Below are positions 21,464 through 28,108 of a DNA stretch of 34,516 nt, one piece after another (the first letter of the stretch is position 1; every line of letters starts with the position of its first letter). The position numbers were made by a program, and so were the translations under genes. The stretch is from NCBI GenBank assembly GCA_014728075.1, contig WJMG01000020.1, positions 1 through 34,516 on the forward strand. Direction: 5' to 3'. The notes under the pieces were generated by a model. That model saw nothing but the letters and a program-made list of their open reading frames with translations, did not search any database and was not told the origin of the DNA. This stretch comes from Candidatus Omnitrophota bacterium. Its GTDB lineage: Bacteria > Omnitrophota > Gorgyraeia > Tantalellales > Tantalellaceae.

Positions 21464-21491
21464 TTGAAAACATTCCTTTTTTTTATATAAT
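21464..21491 (+). promoter_or_regulatory. Sigma70-type promoter, TTGAAA-16-TATAAT
   Basis: TTGAAA 21464-21469, TATAAT 21486-21491, AT-rich gap before the 1322-aa ORF. Confidence 0.7.
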
Positions 21492-21529: not shown

Positions 21530-24500
21530 ATGTTTTCAAGATATTCATGCAATAAAAGATTTTTTATCATACTCATTACGGTGATCTGCTTCCTTTGTAC
21601 GAACATGGCCCCCGCAAAAGCCATGCCGAACCGTAACCTGGGCCCCCAGAGCATATTCAACCCTTTATTTTACAGCGACATCGGACATAAAGCGCTTGTA
21701 AAACACTTCTATCGGTTAAGCACTATTAAAGAACCTTCCGGCGATCACGATATTTTTGCCAGCATACGGGGGATCCCTCTCAGGTTATGCTTTTCGGAAA
21801 AACTTTCACATCTTCCCGGAAAACCGGTAAAATGCGTTCTGGGCAATGATGTTTATCTCGTGATATCCGTTCCTCCCAGAGCTAATTACCCTGGCCGGGA
21901 TATACTCGTTCTAACCCCTGCCGAATACTGCAACGAAGCCGCCGGGATGACAGGCGGGATCAAAACGCCCGGGGACGAACTCGAACGACTTGCCTCTACG
22001 GTCCCTGCGGCTGCCGGGACCCGTTCATTGAGCCCCGCGGACGCGGGCGCCGTCAGGCTTTTAAGTTTTCTGGGATCCGCCGGCTTCAGGGAATTGAGCC
22101 GTTCGATATACAGGCTCCTGGCGTCCGGCAGGGTCTTTCTCTCGGAAAGACCGGACGGGGCCCCTGCGGCAGAGAACACCATATGCCTGCGGGGGGAGGC
22201 CGGCCGGACCGGATACCTGCTTCTTGAAGAGGTCCTGAAAACCTCCGGGTTCGGGAACAGTGCCCTCGGAGAGGCGGAAAAGGCTTTTGAAAGGTTCATC
22301 TCCACCGGGGCGTATGACCTTGAAAGAGAATTCCCCGCGCTTTACGACCTTTTTTCTTCGGTCTTCGGTACCGGAGGCTTCACATTCCCGGACAACTCTC
22401 CGCGGGACGAACACGAAAAAGGCCCTTACGGGCCTTACTTTCAGCCGCCCATAGCTTCGGACACCGAAAGAGCCCCGGACCACAGGCTGCTTAACGCCGT
22501 TCTCAGGACCGCCATAAAACACGGCTTGACAGAGCGTGAAAGGTTCACTCCTTTCGTCCGTCCACCCGGCAGGAGGGATTTTATCGAAGTGTATTCGTAC
22601 GGTCCCGTTACCTCAAGCATTCCGAACGGGCCCAGATTATGGCTCATGAACCACATAATCTGGCAGGCCATCCAGGAAGGTCTTCTGGTGGAAAAGAAAA
22701 GCGACGGTCTTTTCTTTCCGGAAGTGAAAGGGATAACCGTGTGGATACCGTCGAAAGGCACCGCCTCCGCCAATTTCAGGGAACTTTATTTCTCTTTATC
22801 CGAAAAGGCCCGCGGAGAGGTGCGAGAGGCCTTCACCGGTACGGCCAGGAAAAAAAGAGCGGTGTTCCTCAATGAGACAGGCGCCCTTTTCAAGACCAGC
22901 CTCGACGAGCTTGAAAAAGACAGCTGTTATCAGAACATGGACACCTTCACGGCCTTCACTCTTGAGAGTTCCTCTCCGAGAAAGGCCATGGACAGGCAGA
23001 TAAACCGAATACTGCTTAAAAGGAGGATAGCCGCTCTCAGGCTCGGATATCCTTCCTGGGAAAGCATGCCCGCGAACGAGAAACGGGCCGCGATCAGGAA
23101 CGGAAACTCTTATATGTTCAGGCATTTCGGGGACCTGTACGGCGTTTTTACCGACGAGATGCGCAGGGAAGTGGAGGAACTTTTCGCCAAAGAATGCCTC
23201 GGCGACGGAGTGCCTTTGCGGCATGTCAGCAACCTGTTCGCCGACAGCGTGGGCAGGCTCCCCAACATAAGCGGGCACGCCGGCATAAGGAATTCCCGCA
23301 TACATGTAGTGAACGGCACGGGAGACCTAGACGGTCTTATCGCCCATGAAATGAGAGAAATGCTTTTCCATCAGCACTGGATAGCGGGAGTGTCCCCTTA
23401 CGCCAAGTGGGAATATATTCCCGACGAAGAAAAGGACGAAATAGTCGAAAAAGCCCGTTTTATCAAGGAACGGGCTCCCGGCAAAAGGATTCTCAGAAAG
23501 GCCGACCCCGCCTATGGAGAATTCGCCGTCGAAGCCCATACGAGAGCACAGCGCTTCCATCCGGTGCTTAACAGAAAAATACGCGGGGAGCGACTTTCGG
23601 AAGGAACCGAAAAGAAGGAAGACCCGTCGGACTTTTTCCATCCGCCCGCTGCGGCGGGAGGGAAAAAAGGTCCTTACGGGGACAGCCTCCCGGCGCGGGA
23701 AAGCCCGGATATGCCTTTCTCACGGGTGAATGTGGAAAGATACGACCTCCCACTGTCCATCGCGCCCGATGGAGCCAACATCATAGATATCATCGTTTCT
23801 TCTATCAGGTCCACGCTCGGGGAGGACACGCAGTTCGTTCTGATACCCCACGGAAGCCTGCTTTACCTCAGGGATGAAAAAGAAAATATATTATGGGACC
23901 TTGTCTCCGACATGGACTTCGATATCGTGTTTTTCGAAAAGGAAGAATTGCCCCGCGGGACTTATAGGGCCATATGGCTTAACATCAACAGGGAAATGCA
24001 AAATAAAGGCCTGCGCCAAATCCCTGAGGTCGACATAAGCCTCCATCGCATCGACACGGAGAGAGAGGACCCGTTCGACGAGTACGCGCATTATTATCTG
24101 AACCTTTTCACGGAGGTCTTCGCCACTGAAAAAGCCCTGAGGGAATATGACCGATATCTCCGCGCTCCGGACCTTTTGGAGAACATCGAGGAGCATTACC
24201 GGTCACTGTCCACGCTCAGCGACGGAACGATACGGTCACAGAAACTCAATACACCGTTTTTGCGGCGGATAAAAAAACTTAAACGGCTAATACACCTCGC
24301 GTGGATGCGGCGGGACCTGACTGCCCTGGACGGTTTCATCGAGGAACTTACGGACCTTGTCTATGAAAGAAAAAGCGGACCGGACGAGAAAGAATTCGAC
24401 GAAAGGCTTAAAGAGGCGGCGGGGCTCGTGACCCCGGAAAAGGGACGGAAAATGGTAGACCGCATAATCAAGATGAACAAAAAAACGGTCAAGACAGCCC

Positions 24501-25498
24501 TGACTTCCCTTGATAACCGGGACCGGAAGGCGCGGAAAGGGGGAGCTTCCGTCAAAAACACCTCCGCCCGCCGGGGAAGTGGACCCTCCGCGACGGCTTA
24601 CGGCAAAGAACGCGCTGCGCCGCACGATATCTGGGACCTTTTGAACTTTTCCCGCACCACCATGACCGTTAAGGAAATAGCTGCCGCTCTCACGGCCGGC
24701 ACTGCCGAGGTGAAAGCGCATCTGAATATCCTGAAGTCCCTTGGACTCGTCCTTTCCGGCGGCAAAAACCCCGGCGGGAACGGCGCGCCCGCTTACTCGC
24801 CGGTGATGATCGAACGCGAAGACGCGGCTGAAATAAGCCGTTCACTGGCCTCCATCGGCGCCGATGAAGGCTCGAAAATCCCATCGTCCTCCATGTCCCG
24901 GATCCTCCGGGCTACCGAGAAAAAATGGCCTCCGATCCTGCTTTCGTGGCTCTTTTCAGCGGCGCGAACGGCCCCGGCCGTGAACGGAAAGGTTTTAATA
25001 GCGGTGGAAACCTCATGGATACCGTCCTCCCAGAAGCCTTATGCCCAGAAGCTTCTGGTCGAGCTTGAACGGAACCTTCCGGAAAACTGCGCGATAATAC
25101 GCGGAAGCGGCCGATCCTTCTACGGTTCGCTTTCCGATAAGATCTCCGGAGGATCTATATCCCCGGAGAATGTCGTCATACTCGGCAATGTACTCCATAA
25201 AGATAACGGCTTTTCCGAGAATATTTCAGGCCGGGGCCCTGAGGTCCCTTTTACGGCCTGGATAGACGGATCACGACTCGACGACAACTGCTATGTCCGC
25301 CTTTTCGAGATGATGTTGATAGCGGGCAGATACGCTTTTACCGGAAAATGGGACCGGCGCCGGCACCCTTTTATCGGCGTTGAAATGATAGGGCGAAGAG
25401 CGATAGTGCTCACCCCTCTTCCCGACGCAGCCCCCATCGACCCGCAGCACCTCAAGGAGATCTACAAGGCTCTTCTTAAAGCGCTCCGCTCGGCCTGA
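21530..25498 (+). CDS. Giant secreted multidomain protein (1322 aa) with nucleotidyltransferase-like and winged-HTH-like segments
   Basis: Signal peptide 'FFIILITVICFLCTNMAPAKA'; 'FVLIPHGSLLYLRDEKENILWDLVSDMDFDIVFF...PEVDISLHRI' resembles the Pol-beta NTase signature; 'HDIWDLLNFSRTTMTVKEIAAALTAGTAEVKAHLNILKSLGLV' resembles ArsR/TrmB-type HTH. Confidence 0.8.
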   Translation: MFSRYSCNKRFFIILITVICFLCTNMAPAKAMPNRNLGPQSIFNPLFYSDIGHKALVKHFYRLSTIKEPSGDHDIFASIRGIPLRLCFSEKLSHLPGKPVKCVLGNDVYLVISVPPRANYPGRDILVLTPAEYCNEAAGMTGGIKTPGDELERLASTVPAAAGTRSLSPADAGAVRLLSFLGSAGFRELSRSIYRLLASGRVFLSERPDGAPAAENTICLRGEAGRTGYLLLEEVLKTSGFGNSALGEAEKAFERFISTGAYDLEREFPALYDLFSSVFGTGGFTFPDNSPRDEHEKGPYGPYFQPPIASDTERAPDHRLLNAVLRTAIKHGLTERERFTPFVRPPGRRDFIEVYSYGPVTSSIPNGPRLWLMNHIIWQAIQEGLLVEKKSDGLFFPEVKGITVWIPSKGTASANFRELYFSLSEKARGEVREAFTGTARKKRAVFLNETGALFKTSLDELEKDSCYQNMDTFTAFTLESSSPRKAMDRQINRILLKRRIAALRLGYPSWESMPANEKRAAIRNGNSYMFRHFGDLYGVFTDEMRREVEELFAKECLGDGVPLRHVSNLFADSVGRLPNISGHAGIRNSRIHVVNGTGDLDGLIAHEMREMLFHQHWIAGVSPYAKWEYIPDEEKDEIVEKARFIKERAPGKRILRKADPAYGEFAVEAHTRAQRFHPVLNRKIRGERLSEGTEKKEDPSDFFHPPAAAGGKKGPYGDSLPARESPDMPFSRVNVERYDLPLSIAPDGANIIDIIVSSIRSTLGEDTQFVLIPHGSLLYLRDEKENILWDLVSDMDFDIVFFEKEELPRGTYRAIWLNINREMQNKGLRQIPEVDISLHRIDTEREDPFDEYAHYYLNLFTEVFATEKALREYDRYLRAPDLLENIEEHYRSLSTLSDGTIRSQKLNTPFLRRIKKLKRLIHLAWMRRDLTALDGFIEELTDLVYERKSGPDEKEFDERLKEAAGLVTPEKGRKMVDRIIKMNKKTVKTALTSLDNRDRKARKGGASVKNTSARRGSGPSATAYGKERAAPHDIWDLLNFSRTTMTVKEIAAALTAGTAEVKAHLNILKSLGLVLSGGKNPGGNGAPAYSPVMIEREDAAEISRSLASIGADEGSKIPSSSMSRILRATEKKWPPILLSWLFSAARTAPAVNGKVLIAVETSWIPSSQKPYAQKLLVELERNLPENCAIIRGSGRSFYGSLSDKISGGSISPENVVILGNVLHKDNGFSENISGRGPEVPFTAWIDGSRLDDNCYVRLFEMMLIAGRYAFTGKWDRRRHPFIGVEMIGRRAIVLTPLPDAAPIDPQHLKEIYKALLKALRSA

Positions 25499-25578: not shown

Positions 25579-26574
25579 ATGGACCGTAATTTTACACCCG
25601 AAAAAGCTTTAAGCAAATTTCAGGAGATCCTCAAGAAGGAATTTTCCAGACGCGGTTTCGTCAAGGCCCTCTTTTTCGCCGCGCTGGCGTTACTTTCAAG
25701 AAGCTTTTTTCCGAAAAGGGTTTTTGCGCTCCCCCGGGAAACAGCCGGGCGCGCGGGAAAACGGATAAAGGCCGCTCACGACCTCGCAGTGGTAAAAGGC
25801 AAAGACCCGTACACCAACACCGAAAAAGCGGTGAACGCCCTGGGAGGGATGGGACTTTTCGTAAAACCCGGTGATGTGGTGGTGGTAAAACCCAACATAG
25901 CCTGGGACCGTACCCCTCAACAGGCCGCGAACACCGATCCCGGCGTAGTGGCGGCGCTCGTATCCATGTGCTACGCCGCCGGGGCTAAAAAGGTAAAAGT
26001 GTTCGATATAACCTGCAACAACGAACAGCGCTGCTACAGCAACAGCGGAATAGCCGAAGCGGCCAGGAACAAGGGCGCCAGTGTGTTCTTCGCCGACAGC
26101 TGGAACATCGTTAAGGCCCGATTTCCTTACCCGAGCCAGATGGAAGGCTGGCCTATCGTCAGGGACGCGGTCGAATGCGATGTCTTCATTAATGTCCCCG
26201 TCCTTAAACACCACGGGCTGACCGGACTGACGCTCTCGATGAAGAACCTGATGGGAGTGTGCGCCGGGACACGGGGGCTCATACACATCAATATAGGCCG
26301 GAAGCTGGTCGACCTTACCGATTATATCTCCCCGGACCTGACCGTGATCGACGCTTCCCGTGTGCTGGTAAGGCACGGGCCAAGCGGAGGCAGCCTCGAA
26401 GATGTGGTCGCGATGGACACGGTGATCGCCGGCACGGACCCCGTGCTCGCCGACACATACGCGTGCACGCTGGTCGACCGGGACCCGATGTCCGTACCTT
26501 ACATAAAAGAGGCAGTTTCACGCAAGTTCGGATCGACCGATATTGCCGGGGCCGATATACTCAAGACAGGATAA
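25579..26574 (+). CDS. DUF362-domain protein with Tat-like signal
   Basis: 'FSRRGFVKALFFAALALLSRSFFPKRVFA' Tat-like; 'VVVKPNIAWDRTPQQAANTDPGVVAALVSMCYAAGAKKVKVFD', 'VFINVPVLKHHGLTGLTLSMKNLMGV' typical of DUF362. Confidence 0.88.
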   Translation: MDRNFTPEKALSKFQEILKKEFSRRGFVKALFFAALALLSRSFFPKRVFALPRETAGRAGKRIKAAHDLAVVKGKDPYTNTEKAVNALGGMGLFVKPGDVVVVKPNIAWDRTPQQAANTDPGVVAALVSMCYAAGAKKVKVFDITCNNEQRCYSNSGIAEAARNKGASVFFADSWNIVKARFPYPSQMEGWPIVRDAVECDVFINVPVLKHHGLTGLTLSMKNLMGVCAGTRGLIHINIGRKLVDLTDYISPDLTVIDASRVLVRHGPSGGSLEDVVAMDTVIAGTDPVLADTYACTLVDRDPMSVPYIKEAVSRKFGSTDIAGADILKTG

Positions 26575-26578
26575 GACC

Positions 26579-28108
26579 ATGCGGATCTTTTCACGAAAAG
26601 CGGCATTTCTAAGAAAGCTCTCACAGGGTTTTTTCCTGCTGCTTTTCATCTACATACTGTGGTCCACGACTTACCCGCTTACCGGGGCCCTTCCTCCCGA
26701 GACCTTTTTCCGCACCAACCCGAACATCATGCTCTTTACATCACTGAGCGAGCGGCTCTGGCTGCCCGGGACCTTTTTCGCGGTGATCATGCTTCTGCTT
26801 ACTCTGATACTCGGCCGTTTTTACTGCGGATGGATATGCCCGCTGGGGACCCTTATAGATATGTCGGGGAAAAGGGGGAGGAACAAGGCCGTCGTCCCTC
26901 AGAGGCTCAATTTCAGGCTTAATAAGGCCAAATACGCCGTTACGGCGCTTATCCTTCTGGCCGCGGCATTCTCACTGCAGATAGCCTGGGCGCTTGACCC
27001 TATGGCCATAGTCGGCAGGTTCGTTTCCCTGAACCTTATCCCGGCCGTAACGCTTTCCGTGGAGAAGGCCTTTATCTTCCTGGTCCGTGACATGGGATGG
27101 AGCGACCCTTTTCTTGAGGTGTACAGGCACCTGAAGAACTCTTTCCTCGGGGTCAGGGTCCATTTTTTCGCGAATTCACTTATCATCTTTTCGTTCATCG
27201 CGGCCATACTTGCCTCTGCTTTCTTCGTCAGTCGCTCCTGGTGCAGGTATTTGTGCCCCCTTGGAGCGTTATATTCGCTTTTTTCAAAAGCGCCGCTTCT
27301 GCGCCGCAAAGTAGAGAAATGCACGAATTGCGGGGCCTGCGCGTCCGTCTGCCGAATGGGCGCCATTAAGAACGACCTTTCATACGACAGCGGGGAATGC
27401 GTATTGTGCATGGACTGCGTATATTCCTGCCCGGTCGGGGGCACGCGTTTTTCTTTTCGCAAAGGGCCGGCCGCCGGAGAAGAGAACAAGGAGGGAATGG
27501 GCCGCAGGGAATTTCTCATAGTTCTGGCAGGCGCGTTCCTCTCCATAGGGCAGAGGCACAGGAAAAGGGGGGCGGGAAAAAAAGACCGGCCGGTGATACG
27601 CCCTCCCGCGGCCCTGGAGGAAGAGGACTTCACCGACAGGTGCATACGCTGCGGGAACTGTATGAAGGTATGTCCTACCAATGTCATACAACCCGCCTTC
27701 CTGGAATCCGGGGCCAGGGGCATATGGACCCCGCACCTCGTGAACAAAATAGGCTATTGTGAGTATTACTGCGATCTTTGCGGCAAAGTATGCCCGACGG
27801 AAGCCATCCCGCCCCTGCCGGTCGAAAAGAAAAAACACATCCGCCTGGGCACCGCTTATGTTATCAAGCAACGGTGCCTGGCGTGGAACGACGGTTTGAA
27901 GTGCATGGTGTGCGAAGAGCACTGCCCCGTGCCGCAGAAGGCCATCAAACAGGACATCGTGGAGATCAACGGAGAGCGGGTCAAAAGACCGGTCGTGGAG
28001 CCCACGCTCTGCATAGGCTGCGGGATCTGTGAGAACAAGTGTCCCGCCAGGCCGGGCAGAGCGATAAAAGTGGACCCGAGAACCGCCGAAAGAACGAAAG
28101 CCGGATGA
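26579..28108 (+). CDS. NapH-like polyferredoxin / 4Fe-4S membrane protein
   Basis: TM helices with 'YCGWICPLGTLIDM' and 'WCRYLCPLGALYSLFSK'; multiple CxxCxxCxxxC clusters. MRIFSRK start at 26579 is preferred over the track start at 26543, which overlaps DUF362. Confidence 0.88.
   Translation: MRIFSRKAAFLRKLSQGFFLLLFIYILWSTTYPLTGALPPETFFRTNPNIMLFTSLSERLWLPGTFFAVIMLLLTLILGRFYCGWICPLGTLIDMSGKRGRNKAVVPQRLNFRLNKAKYAVTALILLAAAFSLQIAWALDPMAIVGRFVSLNLIPAVTLSVEKAFIFLVRDMGWSDPFLEVYRHLKNSFLGVRVHFFANSLIIFSFIAAILASAFFVSRSWCRYLCPLGALYSLFSKAPLLRRKVEKCTNCGACASVCRMGAIKNDLSYDSGECVLCMDCVYSCPVGGTRFSFRKGPAAGEENKEGMGRREFLIVLAGAFLSIGQRHRKRGAGKKDRPVIRPPAALEEEDFTDRCIRCGNCMKVCPTNVIQPAFLESGARGIWTPHLVNKIGYCEYYCDLCGKVCPTEAIPPLPVEKKKHIRLGTAYVIKQRCLAWNDGLKCMVCEEHCPVPQKAIKQDIVEINGERVKRPVVEPTLCIGCGICENKCPARPGRAIKVDPRTAERTKAG

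Follow-up and report, generated by a model that had tools for sequence, protein, structure and literature searches.

A 1322-residue protein encoded by an uncultured Candidatus Omnitrophota bacterium is a mosaic of modules shared with other Omnitrophota proteins, and it ends with an unnamed alpha/beta domain that also forms the C-terminal end of its other carriers. It is best read, tentatively, as an exported, modular, effector-like enzyme, a nucleotidyltransferase (NTase) that would act outside the cytoplasm of the producing cell and possibly on prey. Whereas the modules, their sharing and the placement of the end domain are direct observations, we infer the activity, the acceptor and the destination of the protein, as well as the role of its C-terminal domain. 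Large mosaic proteins are already known in Omnitrophota, and PMC10066038 describes the giant ones as poorly understood and containing few recognised domains.

The ORF was recovered exactly as given in the first-pass annotation, on a contig (C4 of genome G000) that is spanned entirely by the window, i.e. the whole stretch of DNA analysed (34,516 bases). Its codon-position GC is coding-like over the full length and similar to that of the neighbouring genes. The features of the gene and of its product are the following:

21464–21491, plus strand: sigma-70-like promoter TTGAAA-16-TATAAT, 11/12 positions in a consensus scan, 38 bases 5' of the ATG
21530–25498, plus strand: ORF of 1322 aa, ATG start, stop included, coding-like codon-position GC
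21530–21622, plus strand: predicted Sec-type signal peptide, aa 1–31, cleavage predicted between AKA and M (sequence and hydropathy)
21608–22252, plus strand: N-terminal module, aa 27–241, common to the tandem paralogues of contig C24 and to locus L045 (hhalign)
21638–21667, plus strand: post-signal box LGPQSIFNPL, family form LxPxSxF, enriched in carriers of the C-terminal domain
22442–23641, plus strand: unnamed His/Glu-rich middle module with a putative metal site, aa 305–704 (identity to two giant proteins)
23738–24064, plus strand: candidate Pol-beta-type NTase core, aa 737–845, with GS 775–776, D794/D796 and D835 (alignment, AlphaFold, Foldseek)
24077–24373, plus strand: helical region following the NTase core, aa 850–948, with a KxLKxLxxLA motif (alignment, model)
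24623–24850, plus strand: winged helix-turn-helix, aa 1032–1107 (AlphaFold model, fold matches)
24929–25495, plus strand: new C-terminal alpha/beta domain, aa 1134–1322, up to the last residue (profile in 73 distinct carriers, AlphaFold)

The promoter-like site is a consensus match and by itself no evidence of function; the downstream DUF362 gene has a separate promoter-like site of its own, identified by the same kind of scan. The ORF is flanked by genes encoding a malic enzyme and a DUF362/polyferredoxin pair, and examination of the neighbouring genes identified no secretion gene, immunity gene or partner adjoining it. Positions 25579–28108 comprise the DUF362 gene, whose product displays a twin-arginine-like N-terminus (SRRGF), and after it a polyferredoxin (NapG/NapH-like 4Fe-4S) gene. 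An initial search of the genome contigs using the whole protein as query retrieved no relative.

Export signal, post-signal box and C-terminal domain

The clear signal peptide that had been claimed for this protein is borne out. Indeed, its start, MFSRYSCNKR-FFIILITVICFLCTNMAPAKA followed by M, has the standard Sec layout, with a basic n-region, a hydrophobic core (mean KD 2.22 across 19 aa) and a c-region carrying an AxA-type site (AKA). Inspection of the sequence revealed neither a twin arginine nor a lipobox, and the protein has no other TM-like segment, the next best hydropathy being 1.16. The presence of a Sec export signal is thus well supported by sequence and hydropathy. The hydrophobic start may also be an uncleaved membrane anchor, although the AKA site favours cleavage instead.

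Among the 49 carriers of the C-terminal domain whose start falls inside the fetched stretch, 40 display a strong hydrophobic N-terminal segment, versus 44 of 92 neighbouring ORFs; the other nine lack it, and some of their starts may be misplaced. Hydrophobicity alone is a weak test because membrane proteins pass it too, and the LxPxSxF box is what discriminates: a hydrophobic start combined with an LxPxSxF-like box is found in 32 of the 49 carriers versus 7 of the 92 neighbouring ORFs, most of these seven being incomplete copies or probably belonging to the family themselves.

The C-terminal end, which the first-pass annotation had left as a further domain without assignment, is a real domain conserved across carriers. 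The AlphaFold model of aa 1031–1322, built on a 57-row alignment, has a pLDDT of 91.4 and a pTM of 0.89, and in this model aa 1134–1322 appear as a separate, Rossmann-like alpha/beta domain. This domain has no match in Pfam and no convincing fold match in the PDB or among viral folds; when the two-domain model (aa 1031–1322) was searched against the viral library, only the winged helix was found again. A SAM methyltransferase identity suggested by Foldseek (E about 1e-3) was rejected, the TM-scores being 0.16–0.2 and the rmsd 13–17 across the two-domain model, and the matches to AroB and solute-binding proteins are too weak for assignment as fold relatives.

The domain stops 0–2 residues before the stop codon in 72 of 73 distinct carriers. 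Its profile detects it in 42 of 292 genomes of the host's class, including 18 of the 19 genomes from the family of the window, and matches this genome 10 times. Across a sample of the phylum, 23 genomes carry it, all but one belonging to the host's class, and the eight named loci with this domain all come from Omnitrophota. As a conserved unit that closes many different proteins with signal peptides within one lineage, it recalls the C-terminal sorting domain of T9SS. The latter is, however, a small beta sandwich, a fold absent from the present model, whereas the Omnitrophota domain is a Rossmann-like alpha/beta unit of about 190 aa, and no machinery was identified for it.

Constant ends and exchangeable middles

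Four paralogues carrying the C-terminal domain are arranged in tandem on contig C24 of the same genome, and the N-terminal 240 residues or so of the 1322-aa protein are homologous to theirs (hhalign E 2.4e-8, score 62.8, the maximum of 100 shuffles being 22.6). The next module, aa 305–704, displays 34–35% identity to two giant proteins, a 4664-aa one encoded by contig C24 and a kinase-bearing one from genome G011; these giants carry HATPase/HD and protein-kinase domains. Conserved residues of this module are APDHR, GHAG and HExxEMxxHQ (APDHR at aa 315 and HEMREMLFHQ at aa 606 in the 1322-aa protein), and it may be a metal-binding enzyme. As the N-terminal module is common to the C24 paralogues and the middle matches giants, modules are therefore exchanged among export-signal proteins.

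The middle of the 1322-aa protein has no match in the middles of the other 72 carriers. These carry passengers as diverse as methyltransferases, an M20 peptidase, a GH130-like domain and HTH domains, and one of them (L038) has what read as PAS/GGDEF/EAL-like repeats. The middles of the C24 array (L033:9194-19824, L034:13845-16604) contain an unnamed repeat (AEHExxEHN ... NENFVKL ... AIHTIRGHFPVN ... ERGxxLYVNLLAM) without any match in Pfam. The family thus keeps its N-terminal module and its C-terminal domain and exchanges what lies between them, an arrangement that the first-pass annotation had not recognised. The two termini resemble a reusable carrier into which different enzymes can be swapped.

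The nucleotidyltransferase-like domain and the winged helix

The first-pass annotation had recognised in the middle of the protein the Pol-beta NTase layout hGS...DxD...hDh. The fold and the residues of this layout stood, whereas the strict spacing and a significant profile link to known members did not. Indeed, the motif pair hG[GS] then Dh[DE]h is present as HGS (774–776) and DMDF (794–797), the histidine preceding G775 fitting the first hydrophobic position only loosely; G775-S776 correspond to 23852–23857, D794-x-D796 to 23909–23917 and D835 to 24032–24034. The published strict pattern, hG[GS]x(9,13)Dh[DE]h (PMC11646218), does not match the protein, because the spacer between GS and DxD has 17 residues instead of 9–13. 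The domain is therefore described as divergent and NTase-fold rather than as a canonical Pol-beta member. A relaxed pattern including the third acid, chosen after the sequence had been seen, occurs once in 137,031 ORF residues, in the 1322-aa protein.

Direct searches with the NTase segment at E<=0.001 found no relative in Pfam, the PDB, phages, viral contigs or the 292 genomes of the class. A looser search retrieved two true relatives, both giant proteins (L133, a 10,764-aa frame, and L134, a 2,609-aa frame), in which GS and W..[LIV]SD[ILM]D align in register. The resulting three-row profile then found L143, L144, L145, L146, L148 and L152, so that iterated profiles define a family of GS...W...DxD domains with eight further members in Omnitrophota proteins, mostly large. 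Among the other candidates, L132, a weak match, was discarded as a radical-SAM-like protein, and L135–L139 as looking like chance matches. The long spacer is common to the homologues as well. All nine rows of the alignment have the first glycine and eight have a DxD-type pair, and the helical part beyond contains a KxLKxLxxLA motif. Four sequences retain the third acid, namely the 1322-aa protein (EVDISLHR), L146 (HVDVCLRP), L152 (HVDIAVVP) and L148 (ELDIHDGP); the remaining five have lost it. This count was obtained by reading the sequences rather than from a computed column because MAFFT misplaces this stretch. The conservation of the catalytic aspartates thus holds for the DxD-type pair and not for the third one.

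The NTase homologues whose start is visible (L157, L159, L160 and L164) also have, by eye, a hydrophobic signal-like beginning; in L159 and L160 the motif that follows is SxLR[LV]PL rather than LxPxSxF and may represent another type of box. The C-termini of L157, L158 and L166 resemble the C-terminal domain by eye and failed in hhalign. Upstream of L158 (G239, contig 42), an SMC-like ORF has its Walker A motif GPNGCGK directly followed by CLSGSSEVCLADGS..., which looks like an intein at the P-loop.

In hhalign, the NTase profile places GS on GS and DxD on DxD of canonical NTP_transf_2 members, but the alignment is not significant and no better than that of a control profile. Canonical NTP_transf_2 (PF01909) itself has no match in the genome under study, whereas a search of 39 genomes found it in 29. 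The conserved W that precedes DxD recalls LicD; an identity with LicD (PF04991) was rejected, as neither the NTase segment nor this genome has a PF04991 match.

The AlphaFold model of the domain (pLDDT 66, pTM 0.63) is mostly at 70–90 in its core and poor mainly in the last 45 residues. It contains the NTase alpha/beta core, with elements in the order helix, strand, GS, strand with DxD, helix, strand with D: GS lies right after strand 1, DMD enters strand 2 and D835 stands at the start of a later strand (model 100–108), all three acids being placed as in the Pol-beta fold. The top seven Foldseek matches in the PDB are all nucleotidyltransferases (7uy4 twice, 1no5, 7aer, 6sxj, 5yep and 2rff); with E-values of 0.014–0.056, they are support rather than proof. 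The nearest folds are those of ANT(3'')(9)/AAD(9), HI0073 and MntA. The domain shares with Pol-beta-type NTases the whole succession of elements, including the helical part that follows; it differs from them by its spacer, by the lack of any significant sequence or profile match, and by its location inside an exported 1322-aa mosaic. Confidence in the NTase assignment is moderate because no sequence profile significantly links the domain to known NTases; aa 737–845 nonetheless very probably have the NTase fold.

On sequence and model, catalytic competence is slightly favoured. A catalytically dead NTase, whose fold would be kept as a binding or scaffold part, would account for the missing third aspartate in five of nine homologues, for the spacer and for the lack of a profile link to canonical members; it is unlikely, as GS, both DxD acids and the third aspartate are all retained in this copy, on the expected strands.

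The winged-HTH-like segment proposed at about 24630–24800 is confirmed by the structure model. Pfam gives only a weak HTH_5/ArsR match (E 0.0055, below the cut-off), and the model of aa 1032–1107 displays the three helices and beta wing of ArsR/MarR-like proteins and matches winged helices, including 1q1h (rmsd 1.9, 59 columns) and CzrA 1r1u, with a probability of 1.00. Across the 73 carriers, the C-terminal domain is not consistently accompanied by a winged helix. This observation counts against a membrane-tethered or cytoplasmic regulator whose start would not export, the NTase, winged helix and C-terminal domain forming an internal regulatory or nucleotide-sensing unit. The NTase and the winged helix are of cytoplasmic type, as are many of the passengers found in other carriers (methyltransferases, HTH), in keeping with such a regulator. 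It is nevertheless quite improbable: the basic n-region and AKA site, in standard orientation, would put the remainder outside, and the hydrophobic start with its LxPxSxF box is common to carriers with unrelated middles.

Possible role and relation to known systems

In the exported-effector reading, the front of the protein would consist of the Sec signal, the LxPxSxF-like box and the N-terminal module, and its back of the Rossmann-like C-terminal domain; the exchangeable middle would here comprise the His/Glu-rich module, the divergent NTase with its helical part, and the winged helix adjoining the back domain. The protein would leave the cytoplasm via Sec, and the NTase would move a nucleotide from an NTP to an acceptor outside the producing cytoplasm. 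This acceptor would most plausibly be in or at a neighbouring prey or host cell, a potential supplier of NTP, and the C-terminal domain might serve all carriers for sorting, docking or ligand binding. For an enzyme that consumes NTP outside the cytoplasm, the simplest source would be a neighbouring cell. The toxin-like character raised in the first-pass annotation is likewise conjectural. Several points count against this reading: unless a partner cell provides it, NTP outside the cytoplasm has no evident source; a DNA-binding-type winged helix is odd in an exported protein; the adjoining genes include no recognised secretion gene, immunity gene or partner; and nine of the 49 carriers lack a strong hydrophobic start. 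A predatory or parasitic lifestyle has been proposed for the phylum, and prey-directed roles for its gigantic mosaic proteins, in PMC10066038 and PMC12419801, respectively; this literature is context, not proof, for a prey-directed role.

The enzyme could instead be self-directed, being exported and acting on the cell's own periplasm or surface (e.g. surface glycans or lipids), and its C-terminal domain would then serve for retention. The signal peptide without further membrane segment would suit such an enzyme, and some NTase-fold enzymes do act on glycans, for example FKRP, clade 6 (PMC11646218). However, the periplasm is not expected to contain free NTP, this genome and 38 of 39 relatives lack LicD (PF04991), with one sub-threshold match, and the NTase segment has no Pfam match, so that this alternative is rather doubtful.

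Like the giant mosaic proteins described in PMC10066038 and PMC12419801, some of which share the aa 305–704 module, the protein belongs to Omnitrophota and is large and multidomain, with enzyme or signalling domains; unlike them, it is mid-sized, with a single N-terminal hydrophobic segment and a defined, shared C-terminal domain of which these descriptions make no mention. It also resembles polymorphic toxin systems (PMC3482391), which combine a constant trafficking part with exchangeable enzymes and include RelA/SpoT-like NTase-fold toxins. However, polymorphic toxins have a variable C-terminal toxin domain and an adjacent immunity gene, whereas here both ends, including the C-terminus, are constant and the middle is variable, and no immunity-like gene was recognised beside the malic enzyme and DUF362/polyferredoxin genes. 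A bolder proposal, which we hold as speculative and somewhat unlikely, is that the signal region with its LxPxSxF box and the domain at the very C-terminus would form a dedicated Omnitrophota export or delivery chassis for swappable cytosol-type enzymes, probably used against prey; such a chassis would be a new kind of effector carrier, equipped with its own new sorting domain.

The C-terminal domain, the post-signal box and the NTase branch were not found in domain and structure libraries or in a limited literature search, which is not the same as being unpublished. The NTase would add a very divergent branch, unusual in its exported context, to a superfamily whose members range from antibiotic-modifying enzymes to toxins and antitoxins. 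Together, the exactly C-terminal domain and the post-signal box provide a handle to list such proteins genome by genome, to predict exported enzymes and to allow direct tests of their localisation.
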